DNA of 33,080 bases, taken from the NCBI GenBank assembly GCA_025927665.1, contig JAICKZ010000002.1:1-33080 (forward strand), given 5' to 3'. This document shows, one piece after another, positions 223 to 30,886 of this stretch. Below the pieces are notes generated by a model. It made no database searches and was not told where the DNA came from. It saw only the letters and a list, made by a program, of their open reading frames with translations. How positions within the stretch are numbered: the first letter of the stretch is position 1; each line of letters opens with the position of its first letter. The position numbers were made by a program, and so were the translations under genes. This stretch comes from Steroidobacteraceae bacterium (lineage in GTDB: Bacteria > Pseudomonadota > Gammaproteobacteria > Steroidobacterales > Steroidobacteraceae).

Positions 223-588
223 TCACTCGCGCGAGTTCGAAAGCGGTTGTTCCACGCTCTCGTCCAGGTCGTCTTCATCGATAGAATTAATACGTTCATC
301 ATTTGAAACGCGTAACGATCCAATGTCTGTAGACTCAAGATCAACTGGGTCGCCACCATCTGCTTCATCGGGAAGCGGAACATTGTCGAAAGACGCAGTG
401 GCGTCTTCGGGTTGTTCGGCAAGTTCAAGGCTAATGGTTGACCATTCGTCCGCATCGATCTCATCAAGTGTACCGTCTTCATTTTGAATTTCGATCACGC
501 CATCGCCATCATCAATGTCGATAATTTCAAACATAAAACCATCAGGTCGAAGGTACCATTGACCTGTGGTTGGAGTTAATTCATTCAT
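223..588 (-). CDS. DUF6763-like small acidic protein
   Basis: ORF 223..717; the conserved-looking part starts at MNELTPTTGQWYLRPDGFMFEIIDIDDGDGVIEIQNEDGTLDEIDADEW (ATG at 588). Family call is from memory of the 'W.....G..FEVV..D..D..I.IQ..DG..EE.D...W' pattern. Confidence 0.6.
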   Translation of the reverse strand: MNELTPTTGQWYLRPDGFMFEIIDIDDGDGVIEIQNEDGTLDEIDADEWSTISLELAEQPEDATASFDNVPLPDEADGGDPVDLESTDIGSLRVSNDERINSIDEDDLDESVEQPLSNSRE

Positions 589-785
589 TGCAATATCCAG
601 CTTGTAACGATAATTCAATGTGCGATATATAATTCCGCCACGAAAGGAGCAATGTTCCCGTAAAGCTGTCGGAGAAATCGGACTATTTGAATTTCGGATG
701 CTTGCGTCGATACGCAACGAGATGCGCTATAGTTCTGTTCGCTATAGATTTGCTTAATAAGTTTTGTAACTAAAGAAGTACATGC

Positions 786-2105
786 ATGTCTAACTTCGAT
801 GTCATCGTAATCGGCGCGGGTGCCGCAGGTTTGTCCGCAGCGGCTTCACTTGCACGTAGTGGCAAATCCATCTGTATATTGGAAGCACGCTCTCGAATCG
901 GCGGGCGAATCTTTACTCACCACAAAGCCGACCTACCCGTACCGATTGAACTGGGAGCAGAGCTGGTGCATGGTCGTTCATCAATCACATCAACTTGGGT
1001 ACAACGAGCAAACTCGGTACTGATCGATATGCCGCAACAGCATTGGCGAATGAAATCAGGACGATTGCAAACCGGTGACACTCTATTTGAAGAAATGCAA
1101 CATGCACTCGCGCGTCTACGACGACCTAAAAAAGATATTCCTTTTATAGATTTTTTGACCAGATCAAGTGACAAGCTTTCTCCTGCAATACGGCAGCTCG
1201 CCCGTACGCTAGCGGAAGGCTTCGATGCCGCGGACGTGACTCGCGTGAGCACATTGCAAATCCTCGAAGAATGGAGTAGCTCTGCATCCGCCAACGCACC
1301 AACCTTTCGTCCCTCGGGTGGATACGGCACATTGATCGATTACATCGCTCAGTCGCTTGATCCAAAGCACGTTCAGTTATCGCTTAACACGGTGGTACAT
1401 GAAGTGAAGTGGCAACGAGGCCGCGTAACGGTGACTGCGATGAGAAATGGTAAAGCTTTCATCGCAACTGCACCGAAGGCAGTGATTGCTTTACCACTTA
1501 GCATACTGCAAGCCTCGACTCATGCATTAAATAAAACTTCAAACGCAGTATTGTTTTCGCCAACGTTATCCACCAAAGCAGCGGCGCTTGCTCAATTGGC
1601 AGTGGGCCCAGTCATCAAAGTCGCTATGCACTTTCGTCACGCCTTTTGGGAAGAAATAGATGGTGGTCGTTACAACGATGCGGCTTTCTTTATGTGTCCC
1701 GGCAACGCATTTCCTACGATGTGGACCGCTTTACCGGCGCGTGCACCTTTGCTGATCGCTTGGGCAGGCGGTCCCGCCGCGGCTCGCTTGTCAGATCAAA
1801 ACGAAGAAACGATTGTGCAAGCAGCGCTCACGAGCGTACAAACACTATTCCCCAAGCACTCTTCGCTTCATCATGATTTACAAAGCGCTCATCTTCACAA
1901 TTGGCAGACTGATTGTTTCGCTCGTGGTGCTTACAGCTATGTTATTGCAGGCGGCTCAATGGCACGCAAGCAATTAGCTAAGCCACTTGTCAACACGTTG
2001 TTCTTCGCAGGTGAAGCGACGGATACCAGTGGTGAAGCCGCAACGGTTGCGGGCGCATTAAACAGCGGTGAACGTGTCGCGCAACAAATCATTGCTACTT
2101 GTTAG
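786..2105 (+). CDS. Flavin monoamine oxidase family protein / FAD-dependent oxidoreductase
   Basis: N-terminal Rossmann GxGxxG (VIVIGAGAAGLSAAASLARSGKSICILEARSRIGGRI) and C-terminal FAD motif LFFAGEATDTSGEAATVAGALNSGERVA. Confidence 0.9.
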   Translation: MSNFDVIVIGAGAAGLSAAASLARSGKSICILEARSRIGGRIFTHHKADLPVPIELGAELVHGRSSITSTWVQRANSVLIDMPQQHWRMKSGRLQTGDTLFEEMQHALARLRRPKKDIPFIDFLTRSSDKLSPAIRQLARTLAEGFDAADVTRVSTLQILEEWSSSASANAPTFRPSGGYGTLIDYIAQSLDPKHVQLSLNTVVHEVKWQRGRVTVTAMRNGKAFIATAPKAVIALPLSILQASTHALNKTSNAVLFSPTLSTKAAALAQLAVGPVIKVAMHFRHAFWEEIDGGRYNDAAFFMCPGNAFPTMWTALPARAPLLIAWAGGPAAARLSDQNEETIVQAALTSVQTLFPKHSSLHHDLQSAHLHNWQTDCFARGAYSYVIAGGSMARKQLAKPLVNTLFFAGEATDTSGEAATVAGALNSGERVAQQIIATC

Positions 2106-9549: not shown

Positions 9550-11907
9550 TCACCATTTCCAATCGCGAATCTCTGGCATATCCCGACCGTTAATATTAAT
9601 GTACTGCCTGTGATCGAGCAACTTGTCTTTAAGTTGTTGCTTCAGATAAATTCCTTGACTACCGGTTTGCGGTAAGCGATCAACGGCATCCATGACTAGA
9701 TGAAATCGATCCAACTCATTAAGCACCGTCATATCGAAGGGCGTGGTAATCGTGCCCTCCTCTTTATAACCGCGAACATGAAAGTTGTCGTGATTGGTGC
9801 GTCGATAAGTCAGTCGATGAATTAACCATGGATAGGCATGAAATGCGAAGATCACGGGTTTGTTCTTGGTGAATAACTCATCGAAATCGGTATCGGTCAA
9901 GCCGTGAGGATGTTCAGTATGCGGTTGTAACTTCATCAGATCGACAACATTCACGACGCGAATTTTTAACGTGGGCAAATGCTTACGCATAATGGACACT
10001 GCCGCCAATGTCTCCAATGTCGGGACATCACCACAACACGCCATGACCACATCAGGTTCAACACCTTGATCGTTACTGGCCCATTGCCATACACCAACAC
10101 CCTGCGCGCAATGTTTAGCTGCGGCTTCCATCGTCAACCATTGCGGTGCTGGATGTTTGCCCGCAATCACGACATTCACGTAATGGAGACTACGCAGGCA
10201 ATGATCCATCACGGACAGTAAGCAATTTGCATCAGGCGGCAAGTACACCCGCACTACCTCGGCTTTCTTATTAATGACTTGATCGATGAATCCCGGGTCT
10301 TGATGTGTGAAGCCATTGTGGTCTTGTCGCCATACATGCGACGCCAATAGATAATTCAACGATGCAATCTTACGCCGCCAAGGCAGTTGCGCCGTCACCT
10401 TCAGCCACTTGGCATGTTGATTAAACATGGAATCAACAATATGAATGAAAGCTTCATAGCAGTTGAATAACCCATGCCGACCGGTGAGCAAGTAGCCTTC
10501 GAGCCAACCTTCGCATTGATGTTCACTCAACATTTCCATGACACGCCCATCGGTTGCAAGAAATTCATCACTCGGTATGGTGGTCGCGTCCCATTGACGT
10601 TGTGTGACCTCAAACACCGATTGCAATCCGTTGGAAATGGTCTCGTCAGGACCAAACACACGAAAATTTCTTTGCGTCATATTGAGTTTGATGACATCAC
10701 GTAAAAATTTTCCCAATACACGAGTATCGCCACTGCCCTGTATTCCAGGCGTTGCCACATCGATTGCATATTTGCGAAAATCTGGCATGCGTAAGTCACG
10801 CAGCAAGATTCCTCCATTGGCATGTGGATTGGCACCCATACGGCGTTCGCCTTCAGGGGCAAGTGCCGCAATTTCCGGTTGTAATCTGCCTTGATGATCA
10901 AAGAGCTCTTCAGGTCGATAACTTCTAAGCCATTCTTCCAATAATTTTAAATGTTCGGGATGAACAGCGGGATTGGAGAGCGGTACTTGATGCGAATGAA
11001 ATGTTCCTTCAACTTGTACACCATCGACTATCTTGGGACCGGTCCATCCCTTCGGCGAGTTGAGCACAATCATCGGCCAGCGAGGACGTGTGGTATTTTT
11101 ATTGATGCGTGCGTCGTGTTGAATTTGTTTGATTTCTGCGATCACGCGATCCAACGTTGCTGCCATCGCTTGATGCATGAGCTCAGGTTCGTGACCTTCA
11201 ACAAAATAAGGTGTCCACCCATAGCCGCGCAACAACTGCTCTAACTCTTCGTGAGAGATACGTGCCAATACAGTGGGATTGGCAATTTTATAACCATTCA
11301 AATGCAAGATCGGCAGTACCACACCATCCGTTGTTGCATTGAGAAATTTATTAGAATGCCATGCTGTCGCCAATGGACCGGTCTCGGCCTCGCCGTCACC
11401 CACAACGCAAGCAACAATCAAATCGGGATTATCAAATACCGCACCGAATGAATGACTAAGTGAGTAGCCCAGTTCACCACCTTCATGAATGGAGCCCGGA
11501 CACTCGGGTGACGCGTGACTGGGAATACCACCGGGAAATGAAAATTGCAGAAACAATTTTTGCAAACCCGCTTCATCTTGACTGATGTCGGGATAGATCT
11601 CGCTGTAGGTTCCTTCCAAATAAGTGTTACTGACAACCGCCGGCCCGCCATGTCCAGGCCCAGAAACATAAATCATATTGAGGTCATATTGTTTGATGAC
11701 TCGATTTAAGTGCGCGTAGATAAAATTCTGTCCCGGTGTGGTGCCCCAATGACCGAGCAACATGTGTTTAATGTCTTCAAGCTTAAGCGGTCGCTTCAGC
11801 AGTGGATTGTCGAATAAATATATCTGCCCAACTGACAGATAGTTTGCAGCGCGCCAGTAAGCATCTATCTTACGTAGCAATTCGACAGTGCATTGATTTT
11901 CGTTCAT
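9550..11907 (-). CDS. xfp: Phosphoketolase (xylulose-5-P/fructose-6-P)
   Basis: 785 aa; [92 protein letters not shown]. Confidence 0.96.
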
Positions 11908-11909
11908 AG

Positions 11910-13139
11910 CTAACGCGACTCGGTTGCAGTAAGACCCACAAGGTGAATAATCATTCTCGCCATCATCAATTCTTCATTAGTACGAATAACGCGAACATTC
12001 ACTTGACTGCCGGCAGCCGAGATCAGTGGAGCATTGTCCGCATTGCGTGTTACATCTATCTTAACGCCAAGAAACTCAAGGCCAGTGCAAATGCGTTCAC
12101 GAATGACGGGGGCATTTTCTCCGATACCACCCGCAAACACCAACGTGTCCAATCCACTCAACACAGTGGAGAATGAACCGATCCACTTCTTTGCTTGATA
12201 GCAAAACAACGCCAGAGCTTCGGCAGCGTGAACATCATCAGCTTCGCACTCAAGTAGATCACGCACATCCGAGCTGCGTTCCGAAATGCCGAGCAATCCA
12301 GACTCATGATTCACCATGTGTTGAAATTGTTCAGTACTCATTTGCTTGGCGTGTGCCAAGTAATATATCAGACCAGGATCAATGTCACCGGTTCGTGTAC
12401 CCATCACCAATCCCGCCGTCGGTGTGAATCCCATACTGGTGTCAATGCTGTTGCCATTAAGCACCGCCGCCATGCTTGCGCCACCACCAAGATGCGCAAG
12501 AATTACACGACCGTGCGTCGCGGCCGGATCGCCCATACGGATTAATTCTTCCATAAGATAACTGAATGACAGACCGTGGAACCCATAACGTTCTACACCG
12601 TGGGTTTGATAGCGACGCGGGATGGGCAACAACTTTGCAACGCTTGGCATGCCGCGATGAAACGCCGTGTCAAAACATGCAATCTGCGGTAATGATGGAT
12701 GTCGCTGTTGAATTGTTTCAATCAACTTTATTTCATGTGGTAGATGCTCGGGGTCGTACGCAGTGACACTGCGAAGTTCATTGAGTAATGCCGGTGTGAT
12801 CGGTTGCGGTGAAACATGCGCCATTCCATGAACAATGCGATGACCTACTGCTTTAACGGTTGCGAAAGCAGGCTGCTGTTCGAGGTAATTCAACACGGCA
12901 GCTATCGCTGCACTATGATCCGATGCATCAATGACGTGACTCTCCCGCTCTTTGTTGTCCGCATGATTGATCGTTAAGCTCGTGCCCTTCGAACCAATGC
13001 GATCCAACTTGCCATGCACAATCACCTGTGGCGATTGATCAACTTCATATAACGCAAAGCGCACACTCGAAGATCCACCGTTGATCGTTAAGATAGAGGA
13101 ATTATCCAATTTAATATCATTCCGGTTGTTTGATGTCAT
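11910..13139 (-). CDS. ackA: Acetate kinase
   Basis: [95 protein letters not shown]. Its stop lies 2 nt before the phosphoketolase start. Confidence 0.95.
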
Positions 13140-27011: not shown

Positions 27012-27273
27012 AACAACCTCCAGGCATTAAAATGCTTTACCAAATTGGTATGGGTAACTCCCGTTACCAAAAACTTGTTCTTAAACTCATGGTTAATCAA
27101 CGTGGCCAGTATGAATTGTTAATATCAAGTTAAATGTCGGTATGCATTTCCAGCATATGTAGGGGATAACCGACTACTGCAAACAGAATATAAATATAAA
27201 CAAGATCAACATAGCACTTGAACACTACGTCGAATACCTAGGCGGCGTTAAAAAATTCAACATAGGTAGTTAC

Positions 27274-27301
27274 TTGACACTGCGATAGACGGTCAGATAA
27301 A
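27274..27301 (+). promoter_or_regulatory. Sigma-70-like promoter of the ECF sigma gene
   Basis: TTGACA (27274-27279), 16-nt spacer, GATAAA (27296-27301). Confidence 0.4.
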
Positions 27302-27356
27302 TACTACAGCGCTTAGCGAGTCCAACCAGATCGCTTGAAACAACATTGACAGTACG

Positions 27357-27944
27357 ATGCTCGTTCGCTTGTTTGCACTAATGTCGCATCATTCCATGAA
27401 TCCTTACTTTGAATTTCAATCCGAGCTGATGGATGCATTACCTGCATTAAATAGTTTTGCAAATTCACTTTGTAAAGATATATATCGCTCAGAAGATCTG
27501 GTGCAAGAGGCCGCGCTTAGAGCGTGGGAAACGCGTGATCGTGTTTCATTTGTAAATGCCTGTAGCTTTAAAGCCTGGCTGTTTACGATATTACGCAACT
27601 GCTATTACTCTGATCTACGTCACAAGCGAATCGAAGTGGAGGATCCAAATGATCAGTTCGCACTCAGCATCGGTATACCGCCGCAACACGAAGTAAACTT
27701 GGAGCTTCGTGATCTTAACGCGGCATTGCGTCGTTTGCCTGATGAGCAATACACTGCGATAACCATGGTATGTGCCCGAGGCCTGTCTTATAAGCAAGCG
27801 GCATCTACGTGCGATTGTGCGGTGGGCACCATCAAAAGTAGAATTGGTCGAGCACGTTCAACGTTACTGAAAACATTTTCACTAACGTTGAATGTCGATG
27901 GCGTAAGCAATAAAGAAGCTTGCATTAACGTTGAACGCGCATGA
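27357..27944 (+). CDS. RNA polymerase sigma factor, ECF family, EcfG-like
   Basis: LPALNSFANSLCKDIYRSEDLVQEAALRAWETRDRVSF, SFKAWLFTILRNCYYSDLRHKRIEVEDPNDQFA, LRDLNAALRRLPDEQYTAITMVCARGLSYKQAASTCDCAVGTIKSRIGRARSTLL. Exact start uncertain. Confidence 0.88.
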   Translation: MLVRLFALMSHHSMNPYFEFQSELMDALPALNSFANSLCKDIYRSEDLVQEAALRAWETRDRVSFVNACSFKAWLFTILRNCYYSDLRHKRIEVEDPNDQFALSIGIPPQHEVNLELRDLNAALRRLPDEQYTAITMVCARGLSYKQAASTCDCAVGTIKSRIGRARSTLLKTFSLTLNVDGVSNKEACINVERA

Positions 27945-27954
27945 TGTTCATACG

Positions 27955-28347
27955 TTATCGTTTTCCTGATTCTGATGCGATTGTCGATCGATTTTTTTTG
28001 GAGCGATCATTTGAGCGATCAGCGCGCTGCTCTTCGCTAGGAATTTTTGGCGAAGGAGAAGTTGAGTTCTGGATGTCTTTTTCGGCAAATACACCACTGA
28101 CCTGGGTGGGTTCATCATCATCCAAATCATCTGAGGTACGTGAGTTTATAGAATCTAAATCACCGCTAAGGTCGGCAGTGAAGCTTAATACATCGATAGA
28201 ACCTGCATCCATGATTTCATTATCACGACCAAGTAATTGCTCCGCCTGTTCCCAATCCACTTCAGGACTACCAATAGGCTGGCCGCGACTTAACCACAAA
28301 TCATATGCAAGATTGCTAATAGCCTGGTATCGCTCATCTAAGTTCAT
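27955..28347 (-). CDS. DUF2934 domain-containing protein
   Basis: RYQAISNLAYDLWLSRGQPIGSPEVDWEQAEQLL at the N-terminus; GGAG RBS; convergent with the sigma factor. Confidence 0.82.
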   Translation of the reverse strand: MNLDERYQAISNLAYDLWLSRGQPIGSPEVDWEQAEQLLGRDNEIMDAGSIDVLSFTADLSGDLDSINSRTSDDLDDDEPTQVSGVFAEKDIQNSTSPSPKIPSEEQRADRSNDRSKKNRSTIASESGKR

Positions 28348-28420
28348 AACTTACTCCGCAAAGTCGGTTAAATATTTTGAATTTCGACAACAACTTCATT
28401 GTTGACATGCCTGTTTAAAT

Positions 28421-28445
28421 AACGCGTAAAGAAGAATGAAGTTCC
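28421..28445 (-). promoter_or_regulatory. EcfG-type promoter upstream of the DUF2934 gene
   Basis: Minus strand GGAAC-TTCATTCTTCTTTACG-CGTT: GGAAC-N16-CGTT. Confidence 0.6.
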
Positions 28446-28579: not shown

Positions 28580-30886
28580 ATGGATAACGAAACTTTGATA
28601 GAGCCGCCAACCGAGAAATCGCATTCATTACGCACTACACGTAAACCTGAAGCACAAAAAACTGCTGCGAAGTCCCCTCATCAATTGCCGGCTATTTTAC
28701 GACGCACGCCAATTCGAGAAGGACGACCTTTTCCACTCGGCGCCACCTGGGATGGATTAGGCGTAAATTTCGCCTTGTTTTCGGCATGTGCAACGAAAGT
28801 TGAGTTATGTATTTTTGATGAACAAGGCAACAAAGAATTGGAACGAATAGAACTACCTGAGTACACCGACGAAATTTGGCACGGTTACTTGCCTGATGCC
28901 AGACCGGGAACTGTATATGGTTACAGAGTATATGGTCCTTATGCACCGGATGCAGGACACCGCTTTAATCCCAATAAGTTATTGATGGATCCTTACGCAA
29001 AACAAATCATTGGTAATGTCACGTGGGGTGCAGAAATATTTTGTTATCAATTGGGTTCTGATGATCTTGATTTATCTTTTGATGACAGGGACAGCGCTCG
29101 CTTCGTTCCAAAATGTGTCGTGATTGATCCCGCCTTTACCTGGGGTGGAGATCGACGTCCGCAAACACCTTGGTCGCAAACTCTTATCTATGAACTTCAT
29201 ATAAAAGGATTTACCCGTCTTAACAAAAATATACCCGAACCGTTACGAGGAACTGCTGTTGGGTTGTGCGAGGAGCGTGTGATTCGTTATTTACAAACAC
29301 TGGGTATCACTGCAATAGAGTTACTGCCTATTCATGCTTTCGTAGATGAGTCGTATCTATCGGAAAAAGGTCTGCGAAATTATTGGGGTTACAACTCCAT
29401 TGCTTTTTTTGCGCCAGAACCGCGTTATCTTCGTAGTCCAAATATTGCTGAATTGAAGCAGATGGTGAACCAGTTTCATGCCGCAGGCATCGAAGTCATT
29501 CTAGATGTGGTTTACAACCACACTGCTGAAGGCAATGAGTTGGGACCTATGCTGTCTTTTAAAGGAATAGACAATGCCAGCTACTATCGTCTTCAAGAAA
29601 ATCGTCGTTATTACATTAACGATACCGGCACTGGCAATACTGTGAATTTAGATCATCCACGCGTGTTGCAATTGGTCACCGACAGCTTGCGCTATTGGGC
29701 AACTGAAATGCATATCGATGGATTTCGTTTTGATCTTGCCACCATTCTGGCTCGCAGGCCTTATGGATACGATGAAGCTAGCGGCTTTTTAACTGCATGT
29801 CGTCAGGATCCCGTGTTGTCCAGCGTCAAGATGATTGCCGAACCTTGGGATGTGGGTCCCGGTGGTTATCAAGTGGGTAATTTTCCACCTGGATGGAGTG
29901 AATGGAATGACAAGTATCGCGATGCAGTGCGTGCTTACTGGAAAGGTGAAGGTAAGCTGGGTGAGTTTGCAGCAAGAACCGCAGGCTCCGGTGATATCTA
30001 TAATCGTCGTGGCCGTAAACCATGGGCAAGTATTAACTTCATCACTGCACACGATGGTTTTACACTCAATGACTTGGTTTCATACAACGATAAGCACAAT
30101 GAAGCCAATGGCGAGCAGAATCGTGATGGTACGGATAACAATCATTCCTGGAATCATGGTCAGGAAGGCGCTGATGTCAGTGCTGATATTGTTGCGTTAC
30201 GTGAACGCCAGAAGCGCAATTTCTTAGCAACATTGTTTTTATCACAAGGCACACCCATGTTACTGGCCGGCGATGAGTTCGGTCATTCACAAGGTGGTAA
30301 CAATAACGCATACTCACAAGATAACGAGATCACCTGGTTGGACTGGAGCAAGATCGATGTAAACGGCAAGCAATTACTGGATTTCACTCGAAAGTTAATT
30401 GCGGTAAGAAAAAAATATCCAATCCTGCATCGCGAACGATTCTTAACCGGTGAGTACAACGCCGAGCTTGACGTCAAGGATGTTACCTGGCTCACGCCTG
30501 ATGGTACTGAGATGACGCAACAACAATGGGATGATGGCAATGCACGTTGTCTTGGCATTTTACTTGATGGCAGAGCACAAACCACTGGCATCAAACGACG
30601 CGGTTCTGACGCAACACTATTGTTACTGTTGAATTCGCATTACGAAGATGTGGCTTTCAAATTACCAGAACTCAGCGAAGATAAACGCTGGCTATGCCTT
30701 ATCGACACGAATATTCCACAACAGATTGATCCGCAGGAAATAAGGACCAATCAACCTTATTCTTTAACTGCTCGATCACTGACGTTGTTCTTATTAGGTG
30801 AGAGAGATCGACAACCTCGTCTTCTACGCGAAGGTATCGACGCAATCCATGATGTTGCTGCGACACCTGCAGGCGATCTAACGTAA
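28580..30886 (+). CDS. glgX: Glycogen debranching protein GlgX
   Basis: PLGATWDGLGVNFALFSACATKVELCIFD, ELHIKGFTRLN, DVVYNHTAEGN, DGFRFDLATIL, MLLAGDEFGHSQGGNNNAYSQDNEITWLDW. ATG at 28580 is better supported than the ORF-track start 28493. Confidence 0.93.
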   Translation: MDNETLIEPPTEKSHSLRTTRKPEAQKTAAKSPHQLPAILRRTPIREGRPFPLGATWDGLGVNFALFSACATKVELCIFDEQGNKELERIELPEYTDEIWHGYLPDARPGTVYGYRVYGPYAPDAGHRFNPNKLLMDPYAKQIIGNVTWGAEIFCYQLGSDDLDLSFDDRDSARFVPKCVVIDPAFTWGGDRRPQTPWSQTLIYELHIKGFTRLNKNIPEPLRGTAVGLCEERVIRYLQTLGITAIELLPIHAFVDESYLSEKGLRNYWGYNSIAFFAPEPRYLRSPNIAELKQMVNQFHAAGIEVILDVVYNHTAEGNELGPMLSFKGIDNASYYRLQENRRYYINDTGTGNTVNLDHPRVLQLVTDSLRYWATEMHIDGFRFDLATILARRPYGYDEASGFLTACRQDPVLSSVKMIAEPWDVGPGGYQVGNFPPGWSEWNDKYRDAVRAYWKGEGKLGEFAARTAGSGDIYNRRGRKPWASINFITAHDGFTLNDLVSYNDKHNEANGEQNRDGTDNNHSWNHGQEGADVSADIVALRERQKRNFLATLFLSQGTPMLLAGDEFGHSQGGNNNAYSQDNEITWLDWSKIDVNGKQLLDFTRKLIAVRKKYPILHRERFLTGEYNAELDVKDVTWLTPDGTEMTQQQWDDGNARCLGILLDGRAQTTGIKRRGSDATLLLLLNSHYEDVAFKLPELSEDKRWLCLIDTNIPQQIDPQEIRTNQPYSLTARSLTLFLLGERDRQPRLLREGIDAIHDVAATPAGDLT

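Follow-up and report, generated by a model that had tools for sequence, protein, structure and literature searches.

The window, by which we mean the whole 33,080-nucleotide stretch of DNA analysed here, carries a sigma factor gene that we read as an orphaned, divergent but genuine EcfG (of the ECF15 kind) in Steroidobacteraceae, one with a small number of stress genes still under its control; we give this reading a probability of about 0.72. The clade of the sigma, its host family, the absence of its partners from the searched sequence and the association of the motif GGAAC-N16-CGTT with particular gene families are all computed results. The argument turns on the following features:

27012 to 27356, plus strand: region 5′ of the sigma gene, with neither a matching motif nor a NepR-like frame
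27357 to 27944, plus strand: EcfG-type (ECF15-like) sigma factor of 195 aa, assigned from the ORF, Pfam and the tree
27955 to 28347, minus strand: DUF2934 gene of 130 aa, with an N-terminal DUF2934 domain of the 'LW..G.P.G' type and a low-complexity tail, assigned from the ORF and Pfam
28348 to 28420, minus strand: predicted 5′ untranslated leader of the DUF2934 gene, in which GGAG would be the ribosome-binding site, from reading of the sequence
28421 to 28445, minus strand: predicted EcfG promoter of the DUF2934 gene, GGAAC-N16-CGTT (extended GGAACTT...GCGTT), from the motif scan
28580 to 30886, plus strand: glgX (glycogen debranching enzyme), divergent from the DUF2934 gene; a neighbour, not shown to be a target

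The sigma has the architecture of an ECF factor, with region 2 and region 4 only, as seen in its Pfam matches to Sigma70_r2 (3.4e-12) and Sigma70_r4_2 (1.4e-11); its start codon is uncertain, with in-frame ATGs at 27381 and 27396 as alternatives. The top NCBIfam models, PRK12547, 12546, 12516 and 12540, which we take to be models of alphaproteobacterial EcfG-type sigmas, score 141-159 bits, all under their cut-offs. The closest solved structure is 5uxx, and the sequence matches EcfG in the helix GTIKSRI.RAR and in the block FKAWLFTILRNCYYS. Because a tree that included many long rows in the outgroup proved unstable, the final tree was built with fewer. Here, a branch with 100/100 support sets all EcfG rows, the window sigma and one very long row apart from L049 and L050, which belong to another ECF group. 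The resemblance to EcfG proposed in the first-pass annotation is thus borne out by phylogeny, with the window sigma lying inside the EcfG clade as sister to the Steroidobacter EcfGs (support 94/81). Its branch is long (1.7), its nearest relatives, from Steroidobacter relatives, share about 50% identity with it, and AU tests do not reject alternative positions, whether within EcfG or immediately beyond it (p 0.14-0.48), including one just outside the other EcfGs (p 0.29). Judged from the sequence, membership of the EcfG kind is near-certain; the kinship is firm, and it is the exact sister group that is weakly placed.

The published description of EcfG restricts it to Alphaproteobacteria (PMC3892343), and a partial coverage of the literature yielded no report of an EcfG, NepR, PhyR or ECF15 system outside that class. 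The host of the window sigma is a member of the Steroidobacteraceae, in the Gammaproteobacteria, so the suggestion that the system occurs outside Alphaproteobacteria holds. A foreign or contaminating contig is an unlikely source, because the tetranucleotide composition of the window is that of its genome. Because a contig search with the single sigma protein as query gave no relatives, an alignment was used as query instead, and it was with this that relatives were found. Matches to the sigma occur in 8 of 59 related genomes at 1e-20, a set in which the three genus mates of the window's genome gave none, and in 29 of 217 genomes of Steroidobacteraceae at 1e-28; across 369 genomes of the class, they are confined to the window's genome and one other of the same family. 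The EcfG loci have named relatives in Steroidobacter, Peristeroidobacter and records titled 'Gammaproteobacteria bacterium', several of which are isolates; an EcfG with the motif upstream is found in Steroidobacter and Peristeroidobacter isolates (L081, L082, L083). A second Steroidobacteraceae EcfG branch (L046-L048, L068-L078; L053-L055) mostly lacks the motif upstream, and ppc (phosphoenolpyruvate carboxylase) adjoins EcfG in the three of its loci read at length.

The predicted target gene is convergent with the sigma gene and encodes a protein matching DUF2934 (PF11154) at 7.6e-10, with 38.7 bits against a curated cut-off of 22. As first reported, the minus strand at 28445-28421 reads GGAAC-TTCATTCTTCTTTACG-CGTT with a spacer of 16, and the distances need only slight correction: CGTT lies 73 bp, not about 75 bp, from the DUF2934 ATG, and the two genes end 10 bp apart, not 11 bp. 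This is the sole exact GGAAC-N16/17-CGTT in the window (shuffle mean 0.29). Since 25 of 100 shuffled windows hold at least one such motif, its occurrence in 33 kb is not significant by itself, and it is the location just 5′ of the DUF2934 gene that counts. The possibility that the sigma is EcfG-like and the motif a chance match, with the DUF2934 gene using another promoter, draws on this frequency of about one shuffled window in four and on the absence of genome-wide enrichment. In the window's genome there are 48 exact GGAAC-N16/17-CGTT motifs, 39 of them inside ORFs, and the non-ORF sites include the window site, one at a DUF3175 gene and those at two genes that were named by eye, as peroxiredoxin-like and BlaI-like. 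In a 491-kb random sample of this genome, gene upstream regions show no excess of the plain motif (1, where permutations average 0.48 and 128 of 360 are as high). The first-pass annotation had listed such an enrichment among its checks; the negative outcome fits a small regulon, which we propose on this ground.

Against a chance match stands, first, the extended form of the motif. GGAACTT, as found in nepR promoters, begins only 2 of the 48 motifs, one before the window DUF2934 gene and the other before the DUF3175 gene; by chance, both would land among the upstream hits with probability 0.013 (0.03 if every intergenic hit is counted), for a grouping chosen post hoc. Second, in independent genomes the motif precedes members of both families much more often than chance would give. 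Exact motifs precede 9 of 62 Rhizobiales DUF2934 genes, all in different genomes, which ranks first among 360 permutations (mean 0.22), and relaxing the C raises the count to 16 (mean 0.66). On the antisense strand of the same 62 stretches there are 4 exact matches and 5 relaxed ones, so divergent genes may account for some of the DUF2934 signal. The window DUF2934 domain scores 31.6 bits against the profile of the Rhizobiales set and 13.1 against that of Steroidobacteraceae. The other Steroidobacteraceae DUF2934 genes, which have no exact motif before them, are of another DUF2934 type, to which the two further DUF2934 genes of the window's genome also belong. Upstream of DUF3175 genes, the motif is exact in 3 of 12 cases (2 of 11 elsewhere) and has one mismatch in 4 more; no DUF3175 was found in the three genus mates. 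Third, no sigma-70-like promoter was found in the DUF2934 leader (28348 to 28420). Taken with these results, a chance match appears unlikely.

The motif also marks the EcfG loci of relatives. An exact GGAAC-N16/17-CGTT lies upstream in every locus of the genus Steroidobacter examined except that of G030, about 290-340 bp before the EcfG domain and 5′ of nepR where NepR is readable, mostly in the form GGAACTTTTTC...CGTT. This position before nepR-ecfG makes it very probable that the EcfGs of Steroidobacteraceae use the motif. Together with the Rhizobiales upstreams and the GGAACTT form, these loci make the motif ahead of the DUF2934 gene a likely EcfG promoter, as had been proposed. The accompanying idea of a self-contained sigma/target pair is not supported: an equally good site precedes DUF3175 on another contig, and no promoter of this form precedes the sigma gene itself. 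The DUF3175 gene lies at 562-903 (minus strand) of L300, with GGAACTT-N14-CGTT upstream at 1001-1025. In the 27012 to 27356 region ahead of the sigma gene, no GGAAC-N16/17-CGTT is present at 0 or 1 mismatch, which gives no support to autoregulation through such a site. The loci of relatives hold no DUF2934 gene, so the sigma-DUF2934 adjacency is not seen there. In L245, from the Rhizobiales set, an EcfG-like sigma (30-575) lies about 0.9 kb from a DUF2934 gene (1432-1767), on the same strand and not convergent.

The sigma appears to stand without its partner switch. No NepR-like frame was found beside it, a profile search for NepR (PF18557) gave no match in the window's genome, PhyR gave none there at 1e-8, and no second EcfG was found, in a genome assembled at 84% completeness. 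The earlier remark that NepR and PhyR are not adjacent therefore stands, and extends to the searched genome. With 344 contigs, NepR and PhyR could fall in missing sequence, and the general stress response would then be complete. This seems improbable, as NepR directly adjoins ecfG wherever it is readable in Steroidobacteraceae, and the window, covering 27 kb 5′ and 5 kb 3′ of the sigma, contains neither protein. Moreover, an EcfG that lacks PhyR turns up in several further genera (G069, G106, G097, G007, G024), some of these genomes being near-complete, and NepR, for which G007, G008 and G024 were searched as well, was absent from all three; the absence of the partner switch thus recurs within Steroidobacteraceae. 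An entire cluster is found in G006, a member of the same family in the genus that holds the Steroidobacter EcfG loci, with PhyR (PhyR_sigma2, PhyR_sigma-like and receiver), NepR, EcfG and a HisKA_2/HWE kinase. The PhyR-NepR-EcfG-HisKA_2 kinase cluster is complete at 7446-10995 of L051, from a Steroidobacter relative. In G030, PhyR is in two pieces in different frames (L052 8015-8408, minus strand) next to an ecfG that is intact, and no NepR was found; this genome looks as though its partner switch were decaying.

The orphan EcfG would most likely derive from the PhyR-NepR-EcfG general stress response kept by Steroidobacter relatives, and would act with neither NepR, the anti-sigma, nor PhyR, the anti-anti-sigma. 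It would bind core RNA polymerase and then read GGAAC-N16-CGTT, driving the DUF2934 gene from 28445-28421 (minus strand), the DUF3175 gene on another contig and perhaps a small number of further genes. Without these two partners, either the level of the sigma or some unrelated regulator may govern its activity. We infer both the reading of the DUF2934 promoter by this sigma and the mode of its control. The -10 element of RpoE promoters is TCAAA-like. That another ECF sigma of the RpoE type reads the DUF2934 promoter is highly improbable: the -35 of RpoE is likewise GGAACTT (PMC8103513) and several further ECF-like sigmas are encoded in the window's genome, but the -10 CGTT is the EcfG form, unlike that of RpoE, being part of the R. 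etli EcfG motif GGAAC-N16-CGTT (PMC3892343), and the same motif form precedes nepR-ecfG in Steroidobacter.

The orphan EcfG resembles the EcfG/ECF15 factors of Alphaproteobacteria in clade, in the sequence of regions 2 and 4, in the motif GGAAC-N16-CGTT, which precedes its DUF2934 and DUF3175 genes, and in having small-gene targets like the motif-bearing genes of Rhizobiales. It differs from them in being gammaproteobacterial, in its long branch, in lacking a match at its own promoter and in having neither a cognate NepR nor a PhyR in the 84%-complete genome. Non-canonical alphaproteobacterial EcfG paralogues are also described without a neighbouring NepR, among them R. etli EcfG2, which has no response regulator or anti-sigma gene nearby (PMC3892343); R. 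etli, however, also holds the canonical EcfG1, NepR and PhyR, whereas neither a second EcfG nor NepR nor PhyR was found in the window's genome. The L051 cluster comes from the same family and includes the nearest relatives of the sigma, but retains every component and carries the motif 5′ of nepR, whereas the window sigma is alone beside DUF2934. It is somewhat probable that the alphaproteobacterial general stress response crossed into Steroidobacteraceae, remaining complete in some genera and persisting elsewhere as a lone EcfG that drives a few core targets (DUF2934, DUF3175). If so, such a stress sigma would have been released from the partner switch. The co-occurrence of a complete switch in Steroidobacter relatives and of orphan EcfGs makes the spread and simplification of the circuit directly testable, and nominates DUF2934 and DUF3175, families without known function, as recurrent EcfG targets.

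Near the sigma gene, RNA structure at the convergent end with the DUF2934 gene is nothing above chance, and no GGAAC-N16/17-CGTT in the window is directed at glgX. In Sphingomonas melonis, glgX expression is EcfG-dependent (PMC6599016). Phosphoketolase-like and acetate kinase-like genes are adjacent at 9550-13139 of the window, and an MscS-type channel, a BON-domain (OsmY-like) gene and a Crp-type regulator are encoded elsewhere in it, giving the sigma stress-flavoured surroundings.
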